Assembly: GCF_003671935.1 (NCBI RefSeq)
Contig: NZ_CP032759.1
Coordinates: 124,001-188,000 of the forward strand
DNA: 64,000 bases
DNA from: Buchnera aphidicola (Rhopalosiphum maidis)
Lineage (GTDB): Bacteria > Pseudomonadota > Gammaproteobacteria > Enterobacterales > Enterobacteriaceae
Direction of reading: 5' to 3'
This document shows positions 29,907 through 42,907 of this stretch, piece by piece. A program made the position numbers and the translations under genes. The notes below the pieces were generated by a model that saw only the letters and a program-made list of their open reading frames with translations, was not told the origin of the DNA and made no database searches. Within the stretch, counting starts at the first letter, position 1. Each line of letters opens with the position of its first letter.

Positions 29907-30761
29907 ATGTTTTCAAATCATAAAAAAAAGAAAAAGATTAATTTTTCCAAAATGCATGGTTTAGGTAATGATTTTATGGTTATTGAATCAATTAAACAAG
30001 ATTTTATTTTGAATCAATCAATTATCAAAAAATTATCTAATCGAAATACTGGAATCGGTTTTGATCAATTATTATTAATTGAAAAATCAAATAATCTTAA
30101 ATTTGATTTTCATTATCGTATTTTTAACTCTAATGGAAATGAAGTTGAACAATGTGGAAATGGTGCTCGATGTGTAGGTTTATTTCTTCTTTTAAAAGGT
30201 TTAACTAATAAAAAAACAATTAGTTTAAGTACTAATAAAAAAAATATATTTATAAAATTTATTGCTGATAACAATATTAAAGTTAACATGAACGAACCTA
30301 ATTTTAAATTAGAAGAAATACCTGTTTCAAAAAAAATTACATCGAAAAATTTTTGCGTGAAACTTTTAAATAAAAATTTAATATGCAGCTTAGTTTCTAT
30401 CGGCAATCCTCATTGTGTTATTCAAGTAGAATCTATAAATAATGCACCTGTAAAAAAAATTGGCAAATTTTTAGAAAAAAATTCAATATTTACTCACGGG
30501 ATAAATATAGGTTTTATGAAAATTATAAATAAAAATCATATTCAGTTAAGAGTTTATGAACGTGATGTAGGTGAAACTCAGTCTTGTGGTAGTGGTGCTT
30601 GTGCAGCTGTTGCAGTAGGTATTGCTAAAAATCTTCTTTGTGATAATGTTAAAGTAGATTTATTAGGTGGAAGTTTAATCATTAAATGGAAAGGTTTTAA
30701 TTATCCTCTTTATATGATAGGACCGGCTCATCATGTTTACGACGGGTATATATACATATAA
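29907..30761 (+). CDS. dapF: Diaminopimelate epimerase
   Basis: DapF converts LL- to meso-diaminopimelate, the precursor of lysine and of peptidoglycan. The two catalytic cysteines are in GNGARC (near residue 80) and SCGSGACAA (near residue 224). The start region [15 protein letters not shown] is typical; about eight extra lysine-rich residues precede it compared with E. coli (284 versus 274 residues). A TAGGA site lies before the ATG. Lysine is one of the amino acids supplied to the host. Confidence 0.97.
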
Positions 30762-32079: not shown

Positions 32080-33552
32080 ATGCTATATTTATTTTCTTAT
32101 TCTGATTTGAATCATAGTTTATTTGTTTTACTTGCTTTAGTTTTTGTATTGTGTTACGAAGCTATTAATGGATTTCATGATACAGCCAATGCTGTGTCAA
32201 CATTAATTTACACACGGGCAACTTCAGCTCATTTTGCAGTTATAATGTCAGGTGTATTTAATTTTCTTGGTGTTCTTCTTGGAGGCTTAACAGTTGCATA
32301 TGCGATTGTTCATTTATTACCTAACGATTTATTATTAAATACTGATTCAAAACATGCTCTTGCTATGGTTTTTTCCATGTTATTGGCGGCTATACTATGG
32401 AATTTATCTACATGGTATTTTTGTTTGCCAGCTTCAAGTTCACATTCACTTATTGGAGCAATAATTGGAATTGGTTTGACTAATGCAATAACTACTGGTT
32501 CGTCTTTAGTATATGCATTAAATATTCCTAAAATGACAAATGTTTTTTTATCTCTTATTTTTTCTCCTATTGTAGGCTTGATAATTTCTGGGAGTTTAAT
32601 ATTTTTGTTACGTTTTTTTTTAAAAAAGAAAAAAAATTTTTATCGTATTCATATGACTCCATTAGAACGAGAAAAAAAAGACGGGAAAAAAAAACCACCT
32701 TTTTTAATTAAAATTGCTTTAATTTTATCATCTATCGGAGTAAGTTACGCTCATGGTGCAAATGATGGTCAAAAGGGAATCGGTTTATTAATGCTTGTTC
32801 TTATTGGAATTACACCATGTAACTTTTTAGTTAATTTAAATGCATCTAAAAAAGAAATTATTTATACAAAAAATGCAATTAATCATTTATATGAATACTA
32901 TTTGAAAAACAAAATTAAAATAATTAATAATACTAATAATCAAAAAAAAATTAATAACACAATAAAAAATTATAATTATTTTCAAGTTATAAAAAGCATA
33001 AAAAAAACTAAAATTTTATTACAAGATATCTATGATTATAATCAATTAAACATACAAAAAAGATTTAAATTACGTCATTTTTTACTTCTTCTTTCCGAAA
33101 ATATTGATCAAACAATGAATTTTTTGAATATTTCTAAAAAAGAGAAAAATTTCCTGGAAAAAAGTAAAAAAGACATACTTAAAACAATTGAATATGCACC
33201 TATGTGGATAATATTAATTATCGCACTCTCTTTATCTGTGGGTACAATGATTGGTTGGAAACGTATAGTAATAACTATTGGTGAAAAAATAGGAAAAAAA
33301 AGAATGACATATGCGCAAGCTATGTCAGCACAAATAACTGCTTCGTTATCAATTGGGATAGCAAGTTATACAGGAATACCTGTATCTACAACACATATTT
33401 TATCTTCGTCTGTGGCTGGAGCGATGTTAAGCGATGGAGATGGAATTCAAATTAGTACAATAAAAAACATTGCTCTTGCTTGGATATTAACCTTACCTGT
33501 TTCAATTTTATTATCTAGTTTTTTTTATTGGATAGCTCTTTTATTAATATAA
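32080..33552 (+). CDS. pitA: Inorganic phosphate transporter, PiT family
   Basis: PitA carries metal-phosphate complexes with protons. The two PiT signatures are present: [15 protein letters not shown] near residue 31 and [17 protein letters not shown] near residue 222. The 490 residues (E. coli 499) have two membrane halves around a large charged cytoplasmic loop rich in Lys and Asn. A strong terminator follows. In E. coli pitA also lies in the neighbourhood of rsmJ, so the synteny is retained. Confidence 0.95.
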
Positions 33553-33583
33553 AAAATTTTAAAAGATTGACAATATTTTTAAT

Positions 33584-33626
33584 ATAGGAGTACGTTTTAC
33601 AATAAAATGTACTCCTATTTTTTTTA
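33584..33626 (+). terminator. Rho-independent terminator of pitA
   Basis: ATAGGAGTACGTTTTA pairs with TAAAATGTACTCCTAT (one G-U pair) around a three-base loop, followed by a run of eight T. It is the longest perfect hairpin I find in the window and sits between the convergent pitA and rsmJ. Confidence 0.85.
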
Positions 33627-34366
33627 TTTAAAAGGAAGATATATATCAAAACGATGATGTTTATTACTAATAATAAAATCTACTTTATCATTAGATATAG
33701 GATTAGCATAAGATGGTCTTTTTACAACAATTCTTTTTTTTGCAAATTTTCTTGCAACATTTAATAAATCTTTAGATTGATTACTTTTATTTGTTAACTT
33801 TCTCAAAAATTGCATGTTTTTTTTAGGAAGAGACTTTCTTTTATTACTTGGATACATTGGATCTAAATAAATGACATCTGGTTTTAAAATTTCCATATTA
33901 AGCATATTTAAGCTATTGTTAAAAATTAAGTGTAATCTTTTTTTTAACCAAAAACCAATATTTTCATCTTTATAACCTCTTTGTAATCCATCTTTTAATA
34001 AAGCGGCAATTACAGGATGACTTTCTATCATAACGACATGGCATCCTAAAAAGGAAAGTAAAAAAGCATCTTTTCCCAATCCTGCTGTTGCATCTAACAC
34101 AGAAGGAAAATAGTTTTTTTTGATTCCTATAGCTTTATAGATAATTTCATTTTTTTTTTAAAATTTAAACATCTATAATTATTTCTTTTCGAACTAAAAT
34201 TAACTTTTATAGATTTTTTTTGAGGTGTTGAACGATCATATAATTCTAAAGAGTTGGAATTCATTATTAATGCCATAGAAGAATTTTTATCATGTTGTAA
34301 ACGATATTCATGAATTAAATTTTGTATTCTTTGATTTTTATGATTTATTATTAAATATATATTCAT
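33624..34366 (-). pseudogene. rsmJ: 16S rRNA m2G1516 methyltransferase RsmJ (YhiQ), broken by one poly(A) frameshift
   Basis: RsmJ methylates G1516 of 16S rRNA. The N-terminal part MNIYLIINHKNQRIQ..SMALIMNSNSLELYDR matches the E. coli protein. The frame is lost at a ten-base A run (34150-34159); the other frame continues with KAIGIKKNYFPSVLDATAGL, covering the SAM-binding motif, then YLDPMYPSNK and VVKRPSYANP to the C-terminal GHRFDIY equivalent HHRFDIY. One extra A restores about 247 residues, the family length. The 3' ORF has no proper start of its own. Confidence 0.87.
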
Positions 34367-34396
34367 AATATTTTTTATTTTTTTAAAATTAATTAA

Positions 34397-34425
34397 TTGA
34401 CTTTTTTAAAAATACATTTTATAAT
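34397..34425 (+). promoter_or_regulatory. Near-consensus sigma-70 promoter for the orphan gene
   Basis: TTGACT (34397-34402) and TATAAT (34420-34425) are exactly 17 bases apart, 11 of 12 consensus bases. It would start transcription about 200 bases before the orphan ORF, giving an unusually long leader. The rest of the 269-base gap is almost pure A+T and holds the 15-bp tandem repeat. Confidence 0.7.
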
Positions 34426-34586
34426 TAAATTAAATTTTTTTTTATTTTTGTTTCTTTATTTTAAGAACTTAAATTTAATAAATTTTTTTTGTATAGTTAT
34501 AAAACTTTAAAATTGTAATTAATAATCTATTTTTTTGTTTTTAAAAAAAATTTAATTTACAATTTTTAAAAAAATTTACGTTAAGA

Positions 34587-34616
34587 CTGAGATAGTAAAT
34601 TCTGAGATAGTAAATT
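34587..34616 (+). repeat. Perfect 15-bp tandem duplication in the leader of the orphan gene
   Basis: CTGAGATAGTAAATT occurs twice without spacer, ending 19 bases before the orphan start codon and just before its AAGGA ribosome binding site. It may be a recent duplication or a paired binding site. Confidence 0.9.
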
Positions 34617-34635
34617 AAAAAAAGGAAAAAAAATT

Positions 34636-36056
34636 ATGTCATCTAATATTACTCTAGTTGATAAATTAAATCCAACACGTTTTAATCAAAATGACAAATT
34701 AAAAACTAAAATTGATGAAATATACCACGAATCATTAAAAAATATTAAAAATTCTTCAGAAATTTTAACACAAGAAAAAAAATATCCTATTAGTAGCACT
34801 AAAGTTTCTATTAATTATGTTGAAAATGAAAATGAAAATAGTCCAATTGATTTAGAAGAATTTTATAGAAAATATTTATTAAAATTCAATGATTTCATAG
34901 ATATGAAAAAAAAACTTCTTCTGAATCCTCTTCTGAAAGTACTTCCTATAATCCAATCGATATAATAAAAAAAATTCAAAAAAAAATTCAAGATATAGTT
35001 AAAGATATTAATTTAAAAAAACAAATCATGGATTCTCTTAATGCATTAAAAAATACTGTACTTAGTGCTTATGAGACAGTTAAAAACGAAACTATAAATC
35101 TTTTTAATGGTACAACCTTCTTAAAAATTTTTAACGCAGGATGTGAGTTATTCTCACAGCCGACAGAATCAACTAAAGAGACAAGTGAAAAAATTGATAA
35201 TTTGATGAATCAAGTTGAAGAATTAGGTAAAACAATTGAATCTTCAAAATTTTTTATACATACTATAATTGAAAAAGTTAAAGAACAAGGAAGATTAAAA
35301 GTAGTTAATAAATTAAATAAAAATCCACAGCATCCAGAATATGAAAGTTCTTTTCCAGAGCTTAATGTTATGGTTCCTAAAAAAGAAAATTTAAATAAAT
35401 GGTATCCATTTAATTTAGATGAAAGTTTTGATATAGAAGTAAGAGAAGGTGCTTTAAAAGTTAATCAAAAATTTAAAGATAGAATGAATAGAACTATTGA
35501 GAAATCCCATTATAAATATTTCACAGATAATAATGTTTGGACAGTTTCAGATAGATTAGATGTATCACCTGAAAATTTCTTTTCTACGATTGCGCATTTT
35601 CAAAAAATATACGAAAAATTAAAATCTTCTTCTCAAGAATTAAATAAAGATTTTATGACAGATTTTAATTCATCTCTTTTTGTTGTTGATGGAAATTTAA
35701 TTTATTCTACAAATAAAGAAGATATGATAGAAAAATTTAAAAAAATCGTTCCAAATGTTACAGATCAAAAGTTAATTTCTGCATATGCACATCCAAAAAT
35801 TTTAAGTCAATCTTATTTCCAATTGCTTTCTAAACATCCAGAACTAAATGAATATCAAATTATAAATTCAAGAAATGTTTATACAATTACACACATAGAT
35901 AATAATCAAATAAAATTAGTGGCTACCAACTTATCTAATTTACGTGCAAAAGACGAAAATTCTGTTCAGCCGTATTATTCTTTTGGAATACGTACAAGTA
36001 TAATTATTTCTTCTAAAAATGCACCAGCAATGAAATTTTCACATTTTGTTCGTTAA
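34636..36056 (+). pseudogene. Buchnera orphan protein of about 473 residues (yba-type), interrupted by one poly(A) frameshift
   Basis: I do not recognise this protein in any family outside Buchnera. The first frame (109 codons) ends after an A9 run at 34906-34914; one extra A joins it to a frame that runs without a stop, through KTSSESSSESTSYNPIDII, into the second part ending MKFSHFVR. The joined protein is hydrophilic, with no signal peptide or membrane segment that I can see. It has a Ser/Glu-rich linker near residue 95, a region of amphipathic helices (about 110-220), then a mixed, more globular C-terminal half with FPELNVMVPKK and IKLVATNLSNLR. Codon use and A+T content look like its neighbours, so recent transfer is not indicated. 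The Buchnera APS genome report named four such orphans, yba1-yba4; this may be one of them. Confidence 0.65.
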
Positions 36057-36081
36057 TTTGTTAACATAAACATTTTTTTAA

Positions 36082-36114
36082 AAAAATAGGGTATATGAAA
36101 TATACCCTATTTTT
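36082..36114. terminator. Bidirectional terminator between the orphan gene and coaD
   Basis: AAAAATAGGGTATAT pairs perfectly with ATATACCCTATTTTT over 15 base pairs around the loop GAA. The T run and A run at its ends allow it to work on both strands. It lies between convergent genes, 25 bases after one stop and 12 bases from the other. Confidence 0.85.
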
Positions 36115-36126
36115 CAAAAATAGTAT

Positions 36127-36624
36127 TTATCTATTAGAAATATCTTTAAATTTTTCCATTAAAGCAAAATGTATTTCTTTAGGAAGATAAGGTTTAATAT
36201 TACCTTTATATTTTGCTATTTCTTTCACAAAAGATGAAGATATAAACGAAACTTCTTTAGAAGAAAGAAAAAAAATACTATCTAAATCAGGATAAATTTG
36301 TTTATTTATAGCAGCTAATTTTATTTCATAATCAAAATCAAATATTGTTCTTACTCCCCTAATTAAAATATTAGTTTTTTCTTTTTTTGCTAAATTAGCA
36401 AGCAAACCATTAAATCCAATTACTTTTTTTATATTTTTAAGATGTAATGTAGCTACTTTAGTTAATTTTATTCTTTCTTTTAAATTAAAAATAGTTTTTT
36501 TATTGAGATTGTTAGAAATAGCAATAGTGATATTATCAAAAATTTTTGCTGCGCGAGTTATGATGTCTAAATGTCCGTATGTAATTGGATCAAATGTACC
36601 TGGATATATTGCTATTTTTTTCAT
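36127..36624 (-). CDS. coaD: Pantetheine-phosphate adenylyltransferase
   Basis: CoaD adenylylates 4'-phosphopantetheine, the penultimate step to coenzyme A. The start KKIAIYPGTFDPITYGHLDII carries the nucleotidyltransferase GH motif near residue 18, and the C-terminal ISSSFVKEIA segment closes the active site. The 165 residues compare with 159 in E. coli. It is flanked by divergent epmA and by a shared terminator. In E. coli it lies in the waa cluster, which is absent here. Confidence 0.96.
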   Translation of the reverse strand: MKKIAIYPGTFDPITYGHLDIITRAAKIFDNITIAISNNLNKKTIFNLKERIKLTKVATLHLKNIKKVIGFNGLLANLAKKEKTNILIRGVRTIFDFDYEIKLAAINKQIYPDLDSIFFLSSKEVSFISSSFVKEIAKYKGNIKPYLPKEIHFALMEKFKDISNR

Positions 36625-36726
36625 TTTTTATTTTTTTTTATTTACTGATTAATTATGTTTAAGTCATTTATTATATATATAATATTTTTTTAAAATTAAT
36701 ATTTTTATTTTTTAAAGGGAAAATAT

Positions 36727-37701
36727 ATGCAAAAAAAATGGCAACCTAGTTCTTCTATTAAAATTTTAAAAAAACGATCAAAAATTATTGCTAATATTCG
36801 TTCTTTTTTTTTAAAAAAAAACGTTATGGAAGTAGAAACTCCAATATTATCTCGATCATCAGTAACAGATATAAATTTGACTCCATTTGAAACAAATTAC
36901 TTTTCTTTTAATAGTAATCTAAAAAAAATTAAATTATGGCTAATAACTAGTCCAGAATATCATATGAAACGTTTATTAGCAGCAGGAAGTGGATCTATAT
37001 ATCAAATTTGTCGTAGTTTTAGAAATCAAGAATTTGGTCAATATCACAATCCAGAATTTACCATTCTTGAATGGTATCAACTTTCTTTTTCTATGGAAAG
37101 AATGATTGAAGAAATAGACTGTTTTTTTCAAGAAATTTTGAATTTTGATAAATCAGATAAAATTTCTTATCAAGAAACATTTATAAAATATTTACAAATA
37201 GATCCCTTATCTACTAACTTATCTGAATTATTACAATGTTATAAAAAATTTAAATTAGAGCATTTAATTCATTTTGAAAACGATTTAAGTAAATTAATAG
37301 AAATGCTTTTTACATTACAAATACAACCTTTTCTTGGAAAAGAAAAACCATTATTTGTTTATCATTTTCCTTTAGAACAAGCTTCTCTTGCTGCTATGAA
37401 CGTAAAAGATAATCGTATTTCAGAAAGATTTGAAATTTTTTTTAAAGGTATTGAATTAGGAAATGGTTTTTATGAATTAACAGATTATTTTGAACAAAAA
37501 AATCGTTTTTTAAAAGATAATGAAAAACGTCAAGATATGAATCTTCCCAAACAAAAAATAGATAGTTATTTTCTAAATGCAATGAACTATGGTTTACCAA
37601 TTTGTTCAGGAGTAGCTATTGGTTTAGATCGTTTAATTATGATAGCATTAAATCAAAAAAGTATTGATCAAGTTATGTCTTTTTCATTTGATCGTTGTTA
37701 A
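36727..37701 (+). CDS. epmA: EF-P lysine ligase EpmA (PoxA/GenX)
   Basis: EpmA is a lysyl-tRNA-synthetase paralogue that attaches beta-lysine to elongation factor P so that ribosomes can pass polyproline stretches. The class II motifs are present: VETPILSRSSVTD near residue 35 (motif 1), RSFRNQEFGQYHNPEFTILE near residue 98 (motif 2) and SGVAIGLDRLIMI near residue 300 (motif 3). The 324 residues match E. coli (325). The N-terminal anticodon-binding domain of true LysRS is missing, which separates it from lysS. Confidence 0.96.
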   Translation: MQKKWQPSSSIKILKKRSKIIANIRSFFLKKNVMEVETPILSRSSVTDINLTPFETNYFSFNSNLKKIKLWLITSPEYHMKRLLAAGSGSIYQICRSFRNQEFGQYHNPEFTILEWYQLSFSMERMIEEIDCFFQEILNFDKSDKISYQETFIKYLQIDPLSTNLSELLQCYKKFKLEHLIHFENDLSKLIEMLFTLQIQPFLGKEKPLFVYHFPLEQASLAAMNVKDNRISERFEIFFKGIELGNGFYELTDYFEQKNRFLKDNEKRQDMNLPKQKIDSYFLNAMNYGLPICSGVAIGLDRLIMIALNQKSIDQVMSFSFDRC

Positions 37702-40607: not shown

Positions 40608-41138
40608 TTATTTTCCTGAAAATAGTTCTTTTATAGTAAAACTATGATTAGTGTAAATACAAATATTTGCTGCAATATTTAATGATTTTTCTACGATTTC
40701 ATTAGCACTAAGTTTAGTGTTATCAATTAATGCACGTGCTGCTGATTGAGCATAAGAACCACCAGAACCTATTGCGATTAAATCATCTTCAGGTTGAATT
40801 ACGTCGCCATTTCCAGTAATAATTAAAGAATTATCTTTATCAGCAACTGCTAATAAGGCTTCTAATTTACGTAGCATTCTATCAGATCTCCAATCTTTCG
40901 CTAATTCAATAGCAGCACGTTGTAGTTGACCTTGATACATAGCTAATTTTTTTTCAAACATTTCAAATAAAGTGAAAGCATCTGCAGTTCCACCTGCAAA
41001 ACCAGCAATTACCTTTTCATGATAAAGTGTTCTAATTTTTTTAACATTACTTTTCATAATAGTATTGCCTAAAGTTGCTTGTCCATCACCTCCAATTACT
41101 ACTTTATTTTTTAATCTTACACTGAGTATTGTGGTCAC
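40608..41138 (-). CDS. hslV: HslV peptidase subunit of the HslVU protease
   Basis: HslV is the threonine peptidase of the proteasome-like HslVU complex. The GTG start gives MTTILSV, which places the catalytic Thr at position 2. AGAGG lies eight bases upstream. The 176 residues equal E. coli, with [24 protein letters not shown] and the conserved [19 protein letters not shown] segment. I see no sigma-32 type promoter directly before it. The ftsN remnant lies just upstream on the same strand, as ftsN does in E. coli. Confidence 0.97.
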
Positions 41139-42006: not shown

Positions 42007-42907
42007 TTACGTATCTCTCAAATTAGAGAGAAATGTATCTTGAAAATAATTTTTTAAACCCATATAAATAGCATTTGCAATTTTATTTTGGTATTCGTCA
42101 GTTCTTAATTTTTTTTCTTCTGAAAAATTCGTGATAAATCCTGTTTCTATTAACATAGAAGGTGTGTTTATAGAGCTTAGTATTCCTAAACTAGCATAGT
42201 TTGGTGTTATTTTATCTAATTTTATAATTTTTTTAAATTGTTGAAATACATAATTGGATAAGTTAATTTCCATTTTTTGAAAATTATTAAATTGTAAATC
42301 AAGAATAGTTTTTTTTAAAAAAAGATCATATTTTTTGTTTTGAATTAAATTTTGAATATTTTTAGGAAAATATATGTGTTCTTTTGTATCTTTTATAAAA
42401 TTATTAATTTCGCGATGCATTCTTTCATTAGTAGTAATCCAGATTGATGCACCTGATACATATTTCTTTTTAGATGAGTCTACGTGGATAGATATTAAAA
42501 AGCTTACATGATTGTTTTTTAGAAAATCTCTTCTTTTTTTTAAAGAAACATAAGAATCATCATTTCGTGTTAAAACTGGATAAAACAGATTACTGTTTTT
42601 TAATAAATTTTTAAGCTTTATCCCAATTTTTAAAGTTATTTTTTTTTCTTGCAATCCTAGACTGTTTACTGCTCCTGGATCTTGTCCTCCGTGTCCTGGA
42701 TCAATTAAAATAATAAATTTTTTTAATATTTTTTTTACATTCTTTTTATTTTTTTGGTTTTTTTTTATATTTTTAAAAAAAATAATTATTTTTTTGTGAA
42801 TTGTCTTTTTTAAAAATAACTTCATTTATTTTATTTGCAGACTGTGTTGGAAAGGTTATTAATAAGATAGCAAATATTATCCATTTATAAAAAGAACAAA
42901 AAATCAT
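42007..42907 (-). pseudogene. amiB: N-acetylmuramoyl-L-alanine amidase AmiB, reduced to its catalytic domain and frameshifted after the signal peptide
   Basis: AmiB cuts stem peptides from septal peptidoglycan. I place the start at the ATG giving MIFCSFYKWIIFAILLITF, a signal peptide ending near TQSA, with GAAGGA upstream. The frame is lost at a run of eight T in coding sense (42775-42782); one extra base joins it to the amidase domain. That domain has zinc ligands in IDPGHGGQDPGA, LQEKKITL and SIHVDS and the catalytic Glu in IETGFITN. The joined protein is about 300 residues versus 445 in E. coli: the N-terminal AMIN domain and the C-terminal LysM domain are both missing. An alternative ATG inside the frame gives the amidase without a signal peptide. 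Confidence 0.85.

Follow-up and report, generated by a model that had tools for sequence, protein, structure and literature searches.

A candidate for genus-wide transcriptional slippage at an invariant A9 run in a gene seen only in Buchnera-like genomes

Known systems of slippage at poly(A) runs

The tssM1 gene of Citrobacter rodentium and the tssM3 gene of Yersinia pseudotuberculosis each harbor a coding poly-A run from which transcriptional slippage yields two length variants (PMC4256274). Slippage in tssM1 gives rise to the full protein, as is proposed here for a gene of Buchnera aphidicola. However, the tssM1 run is an A11 with a measured slippage efficiency of 20-25%, and both protein forms are needed, whereas the Buchnera run is an A9 that is found genus-wide and is known from sequence alone. 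Slippery sites are described as uncommon in tssM genes (PMC4256274).

The dnaX gene of Thermus thermophilus carries a run of nine As, the same length as in the Buchnera gene, and the full product of two-ORF dnaX genes is likewise predicted to need slippage (PMC3711429). There are two salient differences. The run length varies among the two-ORF dnaX genes (of 12, nine have 10 As and one each has 9, 8, and 7; PMC3711429), while that of the Buchnera gene is invariant, and dnaX encodes a universal polymerase subunit, whereas the Buchnera gene is Buchnera-only.

Slippage-rescued frameshifted genes of insect endosymbionts share with the present locus both the kind of bacterium and the mechanism at poly(A) that is proposed here (PMC5009743, PMC3164680). 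Homopolymer frameshifts in reduced genomes are commonly taken as recent inactivation, and 42 of the 69 pseudogenes treated in PMC3164680 are single-genome homopolymer events; in contrast, the offset described below is common to 32 of 33 Buchnera genomes. Decay does not account for a frameshift whose run has the same exact length throughout a genus, and the locus offers a direct test of whether endosymbionts regulate through transcription errors. If true, the proposal would mean that an obligate endosymbiont with few regulators left employs programmed transcriptional slippage throughout its genus. Annotation, for its part, may divide or misname a gene that belongs to the small set private to Buchnera.

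The gene and its relatives

The locus lies in the window, a stretch of 64,000 nucleotides from the genome of Buchnera aphidicola (Rhopalosiphum maidis), in which the gene is flanked by rsmJ and coaD and ends at position 36056, just where an earlier sequence-only reading had placed it. That reading described a protein of about 473 residues and of no recognised family. The latter part of the description stands, as no convincing match was found, but the protein does not correspond to a single ORF. Two different frames meet at a run of nine As (A9, 34906-34914, plus strand), the proposed slippage site, and the 473-residue protein is obtained only with a frame change at this run. The N-part ORF (34636-34965, plus strand) starts with MSSN and extends for 90 codons up to A9, followed by KKK and a 16-residue tail. 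The C-part, delineated by frame analysis, is an open frame of 387 codons (34893-36056, plus strand) that lies at -1 relative to the N-part and harbors a conserved C-terminal domain (35508-36053, plus strand) common to members from other genera. The sole hint of a frame change in the earlier reading was the phrase "frame-restored protein"; the conserved shift itself was missed.

As judged by its C-part, the gene is present in 34 of the 36 genomes of the genus, with C-part identity to the window ranging from 87% down to 38%. Of the 392 genomes sampled from the family, 44 carry it. When 394 genomes of the order were searched with the profile A1, only two marginal hits (E values of 9.1e-4 and 7.5e-3) appeared besides the window's own. 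On sequence grounds, the protein family is seen only in Buchnera-like genomes. The gene is fast-evolving, and together with this distribution its divergence bears out the earlier view of an orphan retained in a reduced genome. For 26 of the 39 members from other genera, the short flanks contain rsmJ, coaD, or epmA, which supports one ancestral locus. G073 and G415, the two genus genomes in which the gene was not found, likewise gave no hit for pitA, and their coaD hit is absent or weak, suggesting that a larger segment is missing or unassembled.

The protein has a characteristic layout in which the start, MSS in 48 of 72 members, is followed by a variable middle and by a conserved stretch comprising the last ~175 residues. 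Helix and hydropathy scanning of 14 selected proteins revealed amphipathic stretches and no transmembrane-like stretch. Searches of the N-part and the C-part separately against Pfam and NCBIfam gave coiled-coil-like or chance hits only. No convincing match emerged from the C-part against PDB, from either part against PHROGs, from the profile A1 against PDB, or from 13 members of A3 against Pfam and NCBIfam. Three candidates, namely spectrin (E value of 0.0084), a rhoptry fragment (E value of 0.032), and an RTX model (15 bits against a cutoff of 1000), were set aside as coiled-coil-like or chance matches. Two scans of a contig collection, which may omit records close to the window, yielded no relative.

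According to PMC1899503, Buchnera has just two orphans, yba3 and yba4, which are highly expressed and common to the symbionts of A. pisum and S. graminum. Like the present gene, they are Buchnera-only and fast-evolving, and the gene is a candidate for yba3 or yba4, or for both if the two halves were named apart. Unlike the present gene, they are described without a frame change in the portion of PMC1899503 that was available. A literature search recognised no account of a conserved frame change in the gene, although its absence from print is not thereby established.

The A9 junction across the genus

Exactly nine As occupy the junction in all 34 gene-bearing genomes of the genus; these are public assemblies without reads, and because they are related, genome counts are not independent events. 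The frames were tabulated for 33 of the 34 loci by means of a script that identified the tract, the two frames, and the position at which the N-part starts. The remaining locus (L057, in genome G404) retains A9 and was left out of the table because its N-part has further frame breaks. These breaks lie ahead of A9 and could reflect either decay or additional slippage.

Among the tabulated genomes, 29 need one additional A for the two parts to be joined, and three (G401, G418, and G421) need one A fewer. In the last, G403, A9 is intact and one extra A approximately 35 nt downstream puts both parts in one frame. The out-of-frame offset is common to 32 of the 33, with G403 (one frame) and L057 (N-part broken) as the exceptions. 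The length of the N-part varies from 87 to 148 codons across the genus, such that the tract stays while its surroundings change, and the tail that would be read without slippage comprises 1-26 codons and exhibits no conservation. The base preceding A9 is G in 30 genomes and T in three; the three with T are those that need the reversed shift, with A9 unchanged. A tree built from seven neighbouring proteins groups G401 with G418 in one clade (support of 1.000) and places G404, whose junction is likewise CAT-A9, in a different clade (support also 1.000), while the place of G421 is uncertain.

The constancy of the junction was compared with that of other homopolymers. Within the gene, the length of the junction run is identical in 32 of 32 aligned relatives, while among the other A or T runs of at least 7 in four reference members none is constant in length beyond 9 of 32. 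A or T runs of at least 8 occur in 12 out of 13 neighbouring genes and number 38 altogether. The best-kept neighbouring A run of at least 9 has the same length in 17 of 33 relatives, and the most constant neighbouring run of all is an A8 (31 of 33) in a strongly conserved gene at 40608-41138, which we take to be hslV. The composition of the tract is less informative. Lysine is encoded by AAG in only 5.7% of cases in the Buchnera gene studied, and a run of AAA codons alone is consequently weak evidence; avoidance of AAG at the tract was dropped as too weak an argument.

The frames of neighbouring genes provide a second comparison. Eight out of 11 such genes have a single frame in 32 or more of the 33 or 34 loci that were located. 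The corresponding counts are 31 of 33 for a gene that is presumably hemC and 24 of 27 for epmA. The gene at 42007-42825 is in one frame in 20 of 33 under an 85% coverage rule, with the eight printed failures having coverages of 0.83-0.97. The adjoining rsmJ is intact in 32 of 34 loci, differing in frame only in the R. maidis Buchnera and its close relative G400. Since the neighbouring genes are mostly in one frame and rsmJ is intact in nearly all loci, a shared frame change is not the local norm.

Slippage and alternative explanations for the junction

All 39 family members from other genera carry the conserved domain within a single open frame, 274-537 codons long and free of internal stops. 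For the 25 pairs that are closest by C-part dS, the C-part has a dN/dS of 0.18-0.65 and the N-part one of 0.31-1.29. Neutral evolution, the outcome that the sequence-only reading had set against a retained role, is rejected for the C-part, which is under purifying selection; the N-part is under looser constraint. By these comparisons, the fused protein is what is kept.

The proposal is that a conserved promoter drives a single Buchnera-specific gene whose two parts stay out of frame at A9, and that RNA polymerase slips on this run. An added A, or in a few lineages a missing one, would let the transcript encode the full protein of roughly 458-526 residues, including the conserved C-terminal domain. 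Unslipped transcripts would yield an N-part product, roughly 90-150 residues long and ending in an unconserved tail of 1-26 residues. In this manner, the tract would set the dose of the C-terminal domain or the ratio of the two products. We infer from the genomes that slippage takes place in the cell, and production of the full protein by RNA polymerase slippage at A9 is likely. Whether the out-of-frame state is itself selected is an evenly balanced matter, with dose or ratio as the presumed selected trait. The fuller reading, in which a private gene has been out of frame at an invariant A9 since the genus ancestor and slippage serves as a fixed dose or ratio control of the C-terminal domain, has an even chance of being correct.

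The mechanism has precedents in the literature. Insertions made by the Buchnera RNA polymerase fall in homopolymers in 151 of 157 cases (PMC5574713), and slippage on runs of nine As is reviewed in PMC5009743. The transcriptome-wide survey that counted these insertions detected no transcription error restoring a frame in Buchnera (PMC5574713), which either counts against the slippage reading or reflects the depth of the survey. Further points against slippage are the N-part dN/dS of up to 1.29, the broken N-part of L057, the absence of the gene in 2 of 36 genomes, and the neighbouring A8 that is nearly as constant (31 of 33).

The alternative that survives best, although it is on the whole doubtful, concerns the reason for keeping the site and not slippage itself. 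It holds that the junction is a frozen accident, an ancestral indel for which leaky slippage rescues enough protein without any regulation. Rescue of broken Buchnera genes at poly(A) has been reported (PMC3164680), 12-50% of transcripts are corrected in endosymbiont genes (PMC5009743), and one lineage, G403, has left the out-of-frame state. Yet comparable A and T runs alter their length readily, and an in-frame A10 should accordingly have arisen often, while it is found in 0 of the 34 genomes. The absence of A10 suggests that the out-of-frame state is favoured, through either a limit on dose or a ratio of products.

Programmed -1 ribosomal frameshifting on A_AAA_AAA would also join the two frames and is improbable. 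This heptamer is listed among the known slippery motifs (PMC3711429), and 29 of the 33 tabulated junctions have it in the N frame with the right offset. The same count leaves genomes unserved, as three need the opposite shift yet keep A9. Because some lineages need one A more and others one A fewer, a -1 ribosomal shift cannot serve both, while polymerase slippage can. Moreover, a ribosomal site needs seven As and the run is held at nine, no Shine-Dalgarno-like motif lies upstream of the tract in any of the 33 loci, and the 75 bases after the tract show no RNA structure (mean z of -0.07, with z below -2 in 1 of 33; pseudoknots are outside the scope of this calculation).

Still less probable, and indeed very unlikely, is the presence of two separate genes with the C-part translated from its own start or by reinitiation. 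A plain ORF caller does display two ORFs, but no conserved C-part start was found among ATG, GTG, and TTG codons. In 32 genomes, the first of these codons lies 28-182 codons past the tract, and in G393, G407, and G409 it lies beyond a conserved block ending in FPDL. The gene is, in addition, a single ORF in other genera and in G403. A pseudogene or a homopolymer assembly error, for which the error-prone nature of homopolymers and the frameshift in the adjoining rsmJ of the R. maidis Buchnera might speak, is scarcely credible given an identical A9 in 34 assemblies, an R. maidis Buchnera genome polished with PacBio and Illumina reads (PMC6451198), and C-part dN/dS values that stay under 1 in all of the 25 closest pairs.

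Possible function of the protein

The gene may serve the symbiosis. One specific possibility, which is unlikely on present evidence from the genomes, is that the flagellar basal body works as a secretion machine and exports the protein, which then acts on the host cell. The conserved N-terminus (MSS in 48 of 72), variable middle, and conserved end are compatible with an export substrate, and of the 44 genomes in the family sample that carry the gene, 41 have an FlhA hit. According to PMC8109811, the Buchnera flagellar apparatus has no known secreted protein. On the other hand, G386 (locus L110) has no FlhA, FliP, or FliF hit, yet carries a 431-codon open frame that matches the family profile with an E value of 1.9e-23. 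G127 and G357 also keep the gene in the absence of an FlhA hit, while retaining FliP and weak FliF hits. A strict dependence on the flagellar export gate is contradicted by G386 and was rejected, with G127 and G357 likewise being without an FlhA hit. As far as gene content tells, retention of the gene does not strictly require this gate.

Promoter and leader

The promoter (34397-34425, plus strand) reads TTGACT-17-TATAAT, with 11 of 12 matches to consensus, and ranks at the top of 25 promoter-like sites within 33000-37500. The same scan of this interval gives no excess over shuffled sequences (25 sites against a shuffle mean of 37.3), and the real support for the promoter is consequently comparative. 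TTGACT occurs within 300 nt upstream in all 33 tabulated genus members (shuffled mean of 1.5) and in 20 of the 39 members of other genera (shuffled mean of 1.6), suggesting that expression from this hexamer is probably old. Its distance to the ATG ranges from 102 to 282 nt across the genus. The near-perfect promoter claimed from sequence is in these respects confirmed, and its match to consensus is suggestive, and only that, of high expression.

The leader (34426-34635, plus strand) is ~200 nt long and, compared with Rfam, matches no family above chance. A Shine-Dalgarno-like AAAGGA (34621-34626, plus strand), read directly in the sequence, precedes the ATG. The long leader and ribosome binding site of the sequence-only reading are thereby upheld, as is the 15-bp tandem duplication, an exact copy at 34587-34616 (plus strand). 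The duplication is lineage-specific, being absent from the four relatives checked, and looks like a recent local event.

Other frame variation in the window

Two further homopolymers of the window differ in length or frame. In the R. maidis Buchnera, rsmJ (33624-34366, minus strand) is frameshifted at a T10 run (34150-34159). The ORF at 29907-30761 has an A8 at nucleotide 16 in the window, compared with 10 As in 20 of 33 relatives, a difference that is not a multiple of three. Lying near the start of the ORF, this run-length difference may represent either start-site variation or another case of slippage.
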